Shown here: positions 1 through 21,180 of the stretch, one piece after another
Layout: every line of letters begins with the position of its first letter
How positions within the stretch are numbered: position 1 is the first letter of the stretch
Source of the DNA: Candidatus Desulfobulbus rimicarensis
GTDB lineage: Bacteria > Desulfobacterota > Desulfobulbia > Desulfobulbales > Desulfobulbaceae
NCBI GenBank assembly: GCA_008633435.1
Contig: RKSL01000079.1
Location: 1-46,381 of the forward strand
Direction of reading: 5' to 3'
Length of the DNA: 46,381 bases
Position numbers and translations under genes: made by a program
Notes under the pieces: generated by a model
What the model saw: the letters and a program-made list of their open reading frames with translations, nothing else
Database searches by the model: none
What the model was told of the DNA's origin: nothing

Positions 1-351
1 TCTTGACGGCCAAATTTTATACTTTCAGACGGTTAAGTTAGGCCGTCCGGGAATTGCTGCCGTGAACAAATGCCTGGCTTGCCCAATCTCTGCATTATGT
101 TCAAAAAGTTATCCTCGCGATATCAATCAATCCTATGGCTGCTGTGAAATTTTTGGCATGCTCGGAGGTTTTGCTCACCTGATCTTGGAGGAAAATCCTC
201 ATTGTTCAAGGCTACCATAATTTCTACACCTTCTTACCAGCACTGTCCTGTAAATATGCTATCATTCCCTGTCTTAGAGGTATCATAAAGTAAGTTTTTG
301 GCAAAAGTGTAATGGGGTACTCTAAATTTCAGACTCAGTTCCAGGGAAATA
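1..351. other. Left-edge non-coding stretch with a decayed repeat
   Basis: No credible gene is visible here. The minus-strand exporter gene ends at 352, so this is its downstream side. There is a 7-bp inverted pair (GACGGCC near 5 and GGCCGTC near 42) without a T-run. About 130 bases at 79-211 resemble the two MITE copies found elsewhere in the window and are described separately. No terminator for the exporter gene was found. Confidence 0.5.
79..211 (+). repeat. Diverged relative of the window's MITE family
   Basis: Four blocks occur in the same order as in the intact copies: ATCTCTGC at 86, CTCGGAG at 161, GCTCACCTGA at 173 (GCTTACCTGA in the others) and AAAATCCTCATT at 192. The spacing between the last two blocks is 19 bases, as in the copy at 21003. 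The middle is rearranged, and no terminal inverted repeat or target duplication could be recognised. It is therefore an old, decayed copy or a related element. Similarity was judged by eye only. Confidence 0.5.
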
Positions 352-1933: not shown

Positions 1934-1972
1934 ACTGAGAAACACTATGGTTCAACCCGACTGGTTAGAATA

Positions 1973-2133
1973 GTACCTGTCCCAAAATGGTCTTTTTGTC
2001 CGATCTCTGCGTCATGCTCAAAAAATAATGCTGGGAATATCCGGCCTGCGCTTATTTTTCTCGCAATCCTCGGAGTCTCCCGTAGAGCGGCTTACCTGAC
2101 TTCGAACAAAAAACCTCATTTTTGGACAGACAC
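1973..2133. mobile_element. 161-bp MITE, copy 1
   Basis: This non-coding element is bounded by imperfect inverted repeats of about 17 bp (GTACCTGTCCCAAAATG at the left; the right end reads inward as GTGTCTGTCCAAAAATG). It is flanked by a direct duplication TAGAATA at 1966-1972 and 2134-2140. It is nearly identical to 21003-21162. No transposase is encoded, so it must move in trans if still mobile. It sits about 40 bases right of the IS200-type element, at the 3' end of the regulator gene. The parent transposon family was not identified. Confidence 0.85.
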
Positions 2134-2205
2134 TAGAATATCAGTGGGCATTGCAATATCATGGAAGCGTAACGATACTTAGCCGTGACGAAAAAAATAC
2201 ACTCT

Positions 2206-20969: not shown

Positions 20970-21002
20970 CGATTGCCGGCAGGAGCCTGCAAACACTAGG
21001 TA

Positions 21003-21162
21003 GTGCCTGTCCCAAAATGGTCTTTTTGTCCGATCTCTGCGTCATGCTCAAAAAATAATGCTGGGAATATCCGGCCTGCGCTTATTTTTTCCGCAATCCT
21101 CGGAGTCTCCCGTCAGTCGCTTACCTGACCTCGAACAAAAATCCTCATTTTTGGACAGACAC
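21003..21162. mobile_element. 160-bp MITE, copy 2
   Basis: It is nearly identical to 1973-2133, with inverted ends GTGCCTGTCCCAAAATG and, reading inward from the right, GTGTCTGTCCAAAAATG (two mismatches). It is flanked by TAGGTA at 20997-21002 and 21163-21168. Differences between the copies are a few substitutions plus a small change near the CCCGTAGAGCGG/CCCGTCAGTCGC segment. It encodes nothing. It lies between the isochorismatase-like gene and alaS, 46 bases before the alaS start. Confidence 0.88.
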
Positions 21163-21180
21163 TAGGTAATTTTCTATCTT
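21151..21180 (+). promoter_or_regulatory. Possible hybrid promoter at the MITE-alaS junction
   Basis: TTGGAC at 21151, inside the right end of the MITE, and TATCTT at 21175, in the flanking DNA, are 18 bases apart and could form a weak sigma-70 promoter for alaS. Both hexamers are only moderate matches. No better promoter was seen between the MITE and the alaS start. Confidence 0.25.

Follow-up and report, generated by a model that had tools for sequence, protein, structure and literature searches.

The window analysed here, a 46,381-nucleotide stretch of the Candidatus Desulfobulbus rimicarensis genome, carries two closely similar miniature inverted-repeat elements (MITEs) and a third element that shares their body, raising the question of which transposase moves such elements and how their variants in length and in end sequence arise. 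The two copies end in GTRCCTGTCCCAAAATGG and CCTCATTTTTGGACAGACAC and are 94% identical to each other. A sequence-only reading of the window had described them as near-identical, with imperfect inverted ends of about 17 bp and with different flanking direct repeats indicative of separate insertions. The coordinates of both copies hold and both pairs of flanking repeats are present (Table 1); the inverted ends are likewise present, but the inverted similarity extends well past 17 bp. The unequal duplication lengths noted there are real, since copy 1 and a few other copies have 7-bp duplications.

Table 1 Features of the window and insertion sequences (ISs) of relatives considered as candidate mobilisers
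Feature	Position or length	Strand	Remark
Decayed third element, shared body, class-2-like tips	55..216	+	Limits approximate; duplication no longer clear
Probable decayed 17-bp micro-insert CGGAGGTTTTGCTCACC in third element	163..179	-	By resemblance to CGGAGTCTTCGCTTACC
Left target duplication of copy 1	1966..1972		TAGAATA; read from sequence
MITE copy 1, class 1, 161 bp	1973..2133	+	Between IS200-type gene and convergent gene
Nested micro-insert CGGAGTCTCCCGTAGAGCGGCTTACC inside copy 1	2071..2096	-	
Right target duplication of copy 1	2134..2140		TAGAATA; read from sequence
Left target duplication of copy 2	20997..21002		TAGGTA; read from sequence
MITE copy 2, class 1, 160 bp	21003..21162	+	Gap just upstream of alaS-like gene starting 21209
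Nested micro-insert CGGAGTCTCCCGTCAGTCGCTTACC inside copy 2	21101..21125	-	
Right target duplication of copy 2	21163..21168		TAGGTA; read from sequence
IS L152	1693 bp		TAACTA on both sides
IS L148	1700 bp		TAGCTA
IS L159	1691 bp		TACCTA; transposase gene broken
IS L150, same genus	1699 bp		Flanks TAACTT and TAACTG

The absence from the window of a transposase with matching ends, as first reported from the sequence, is borne out. The sole transposase found there is an IS200/IS605-type Y1 gene at 1363–1848 (NF033573, 152 bits), which was judged unrelated to the MITE. Its position, 125 bp from copy 1, is what speaks for movement of the MITE by a different transposase, such as this IS200-type gene. 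The IS200/IS605 family is not known to have terminal inverted repeats or to duplicate its targets, and the MITE copies show both; we therefore consider this mover very unlikely.

The host genome is a 2.92-Mb draft of 295 contigs in which repeats lie at contig breaks, and genome-wide figures derive from searches and fetched stretches. A genome-wide search with copy 1 as the query, as the sequence-only reading had proposed, returned 43 matches. When two mismatches or fewer are allowed, the tip GTGYCTGTCCNNAAATG occurs at 148 genomic sites, compared with 11 for the reversed control pattern. The elements to which both window copies belong, designated class 1, form a short, non-coding, multi-copy MITE, mostly 141–195 bp in length, with terminal inverted repeats GTGYCTGTCC... 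at both ends; the repeat family was found in 30 of 57 sampled relatives. For flank statistics, 56 complete class-1 copies were extracted from the fetched loci. The flanking hexamers match at five or six of six positions in 42 of these copies (identical in 27, one base apart in 15); permutation gave a mean of 6.1 such copies, with a maximum of 13. The duplications are 6 bp, sometimes 7 bp, and the hexamers are mostly TANNTA; about one-quarter of class-1 copies have no clear duplication, as old or recombined copies would show. Elements of only 36 and 46 bp that run from tip to tip and are flanked by perfect duplications (L067, L126) suggest that the tips alone may be enough for movement.

The whole MITE folds as one long hairpin, with z-scores of −5.3 and −6.2 when folded as single-stranded DNA, and 17 of the 40 consensus pairs show changes on both sides. 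These features would also fit a conserved non-mobile structure, such as a regulatory RNA, a terminator or a REP-like hairpin, repeated by happenstance. Such a fold, however, arises from inverted repeats alone, and covariation of the terminal pairs follows from the inverted repeats at the tips, which makes it no evidence for RNA function. In addition, target duplications at unrelated sites accompany both tip classes, an IS with the same ends exists, and no Rfam match was found in the window. A non-mobile structure is accordingly an extremely improbable explanation, and the duplication statistics contradict the possibility, raised in the sequence-only reading, of copies that occupy the same place in relatives and lack duplications.

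A search for the mobilising family, likewise proposed in that reading, identified an IS with the tips of the MITE and 6-bp TANNTA duplications. It was found by an NF033593 family search over the order, followed by end inspection. This candidate mobiliser is 1.69–1.70 kb long and has GTGTCTGTCC ends and a DDE transposase of NCBIfam NF033593 (ISNCY_1); the transposases of L152 and L150 score 414 and 430 bits against the profile, above its cut-off of 325, and the type of duplication is the same in NF033593 members that end in GTGTCCATCC. Of the two IS ends, the one downstream of the transposase gene is the one that the MITE tips resemble. The tip of a 141-bp MITE (L039) is identical to those of L152 and L148 over 17 of 17 bp, and comparison of its interior with these two ISs gave nothing significant beyond the tip. 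Because the similarity between MITE and IS is confined to the tips of approximately 17 bp, the element is a type II MITE as the term is used in the review PMC10969869, which defines the type by similarity to an IS confined to the ends. From the shared tips and duplications, we infer that the NF033593 transposase cuts the MITE.

In the host genome, the left IS end and the start of the transposase gene lie at the end of one contig (C244), and the right IS end at the end of another (C39); the two ends adjoin different targets and thus represent at least two junctions. The draft assembly contains no complete copy of the IS. In one relative (G030), the 13 occurrences of a single tip sequence all lie close to contig ends and beside TANNTA-like targets, as a collapsed IS would give; the IS body is absent from that assembly, and collapsed ends alone were found. 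Its contig ends (L090–L096, L098, L110–L122) hold at least 13 near-identical IS ends with TANNTA-like targets, and their near-identity apparently reflects recent, burst-like spread of the mobilising IS in this relative. Another relative (G046) contains a distant match with a broken NF033593 transposase. The IS1202-like ISNCY_2 family (NF033594) was rejected as a partner: no genome exceeded the cut-off, and the fetched loci had no matching GTGTCTGTCC ends. The tips together with TANNTA duplications were seen only in the NF033593 IS, which also argues against a different transposase. By elimination, we take the NF033593 partner to be probably the ISDol1 group of ISfinder. In the digIS paper, IS1202 and ISDol1 are the two subfamilies of ISNCY for which the number of sequences was sufficient.

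A second tip class was reached from the right-hand ends of mixed-tip elements (L026, L060) and from the third element of the window. Class 2 has the tips GGSTGCCTTGAAAAATT...AATTTTTCAAGGTGGCC and about 30 copies in the host genome. Identical 4-bp flanks were found in 19 of 29 class-2 copies, compared with 2.4 in permuted data, and the other lengths tried do worse. The host copies include L204–L223, L166, L238, L241, L252 and L273, with duplications such as TTAA, TAAA and TCAT. The third element had been read, at 79–211, as a decayed relative of copies 1 and 2. Its interior blocks are indeed common to those copies, but its outer ends (TGCTGCCGTGAACAAATG...CATTGTTCAAGGCTACC) resemble those of the second class rather than worn GTGTCTGTCC ends, and the element appears to belong to this class, with its other tips and 4-bp duplication. 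Sampled host-genome copies have a median pairwise identity of 94% in class 1 (best pair 98.8%) and of 97% in class 2 (best pair 99.4%), values that lend moderate support to the recent movement proposed in the sequence-only reading.

Sampled class-1 and class-2 bodies align at 83–89% identity, and a base length of 141 bp is common to both. The homologous 141-bp body is also found with the second tips, accompanied by a 4-bp duplication, and so has two transposition systems under which it can travel. Two elements of the same genus (L104, L106) have a class-2-like body under class-1 tips. Most simply, recombination within the shared body would swap the tips; the tip difference between the classes may also have come about through point mutations that arose independently in the outermost 10 bp. 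The fetched loci contain no long class-2-tipped element, the sole case being two neighbouring MITEs with no IS; a mobiliser of class 2 was looked for and not found.

Length variation of the MITE has a separate source. MITE sizes of 141, 166, 183 and 190 bp differ by segments of 17, 24 or 25 bp, and these segments are copies of a micro-insert, GGTAAGCG-N-AGACTCCG, which is 17–27 bp long and placed exactly between two A's. There are three fixed MITE sites (GGTCA^AGGA, CTCGGA^ATATCA and GGGCGA^AAAGG). The exact pattern GTAAGCGN{0,16}AGACTYCG has 98 matches in the host genome and none for the control, and the micro-insert pattern occurs in 131 of 196 relatives, at up to 314 per genome, with controls near zero. 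Two other repeat families also contain micro-inserts, as does sequence that appears to be single-copy, and tandem copies occur with periods of 17 and 25 bp. One further family, unrelated to the MITE (..TGATCAGATGTGCCCGAGATTCAGGTA..AGCAGGCCAACGAGC..; L014, L052, L055, L060, L226, L242, L248, L251 and others), mostly carries the micro-insert, L055 being without it; of the other (GACGAGTCA..ATAGCCCGC; L243, L256, L258, L025), the four copies seen each carry a micro-insert of 17 bp.

The micro-inserts might alternatively be an ancestral part of the body that was deleted from some copies, and within the MITE alone, presence or absence gives no polarity. Comparisons beyond presence and absence make this reading very unlikely. 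The same MITE site holds versions of 17, 24 and 25 bp, and the segment is present in several unrelated sequences. In L257, a micro-insert interrupts and frameshifts a transposase gene that is uninterrupted at that position in 11 compared homologues, while a more diverged homologue (L313) has the identical 17-bp insert at the identical site. The pair L257 and L313 is the best evidence that the micro-insert is inserted and that it prefers certain targets. Filled and empty versions with exact boundaries are available for the three MITE sites, for one further repeat (with a single empty copy) and for a transposase gene.

Pairing within the micro-insert was also analysed. The covarying central positions pair at the outer position in 36 of 43 variants of the 24-mers (23.5 expected) and in 15 of 15 variants of the 26-mers (10.5 expected), although the variants are related and the shuffles therefore overstate the certainty of this covariation. 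When single micro-inserts were folded alone as DNA, no consistent hairpin was obtained by energy, though the central positions covary. Movement by an enzyme acting on single strands via the central inverted repeat is our guess. Two further matches lie in genes. A 27-bp micro-insert-like segment is in frame in the linker of a primase-like gene with DNAG_N and Toprim domains (L249, G000:C77:86-111); no relatives of this gene for an empty-site comparison were found in viral contigs. In a dehydrogenase E2-like gene (L259), a match to the pattern was put down to chance on the basis of its flanks.

On this evidence, we favour, as a fairly likely reading, that the micro-insert GGTAAGCG-N(1-11)-AGACTCCG is an extremely small mobile element of this order, with a short, covarying central inverted repeat and a putative enzyme as its mover, which would insert into MITEs and genes at A^A, also in tandem, and reach hundreds of copies per genome. 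In that case, the MITE body of 141 bp would serve as a chassis on which inserts of this kind accumulate and whose end signals are swapped between two systems of transposition.

For the MITE itself, we regard it as very probable, judging from sequence comparisons, that it is a type II element moved in trans by the transposase of the NF033593 IS, with a homologous body under two tip systems and length variants derived from micro-inserts. Under this model, the DDE transposase would recognise the tip of the non-coding, hairpin-forming element and duplicate 6 bp, sometimes 7 bp, at TANNTA-like targets. The same body would also move under the second tip set with a 4-bp duplication, recombination in the body would exchange the tips, and micro-inserts of 17–25 bp at fixed A^A positions of the body would give the length variants.

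REPINs depend on a Y1 (RAYT) transposase. Like the MITE, REP sequences and REPINs with their RAYTs are short palindromic repeats moved in trans (PMC3116915), whereas the MITE described here has inverted ends, target duplications and a DDE IS. Prokaryotic type II MITEs, including the Coxiella QMITEs and Chunjie of Geobacter uraniireducens (PMC10969869), are similarly short and non-coding, with inverted ends, target duplications and size variants. Neither two tip and duplication systems on one body nor size variants from a recurrent nested insert of 17–25 bp are described in the consulted part of that review, and Chunjie was compared by description. ISNCY_1 (NF033593), the proposed transposase source, shares the tips and the 6-bp TANNTA duplication with the MITE; it differs in its length of 1.67–1.70 kb, in carrying a transposase gene and in an interior that has no relation to the body of the MITE. 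Among known kinds, the micro-inserts come closest to the small dispersed repeats of cyanobacteria, which are cited in PMC3116915 and PMC2884548 (from Elhai et al. 2008) as dispersed units of about 20 bp that may be mobile and may be tandem. Both are dispersed, about 20 bp long and present in many copies; the cyanobacterial repeats belong to another phylum, and the likeness is based on the cited description.

Movement of a MITE by an IS is commonplace. Two features are out of the ordinary: the association of one body with two tip systems, and an insert of 17–27 bp that is precise and reaches hundreds of copies. A repeat family of about half of the sampled relatives is now linked to a likely transposase, and the 36-bp elements with perfect duplications suggest how little a passenger needs. 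The exchangeable tips, in turn, point to a way in which a non-autonomous element might persist longer than any single transposase. If mobile, the micro-inserts would rank with the smallest mobile DNAs known; because they frameshift genes and number up to 314 per genome, they would be a source of variation as well as of wrong gene predictions.
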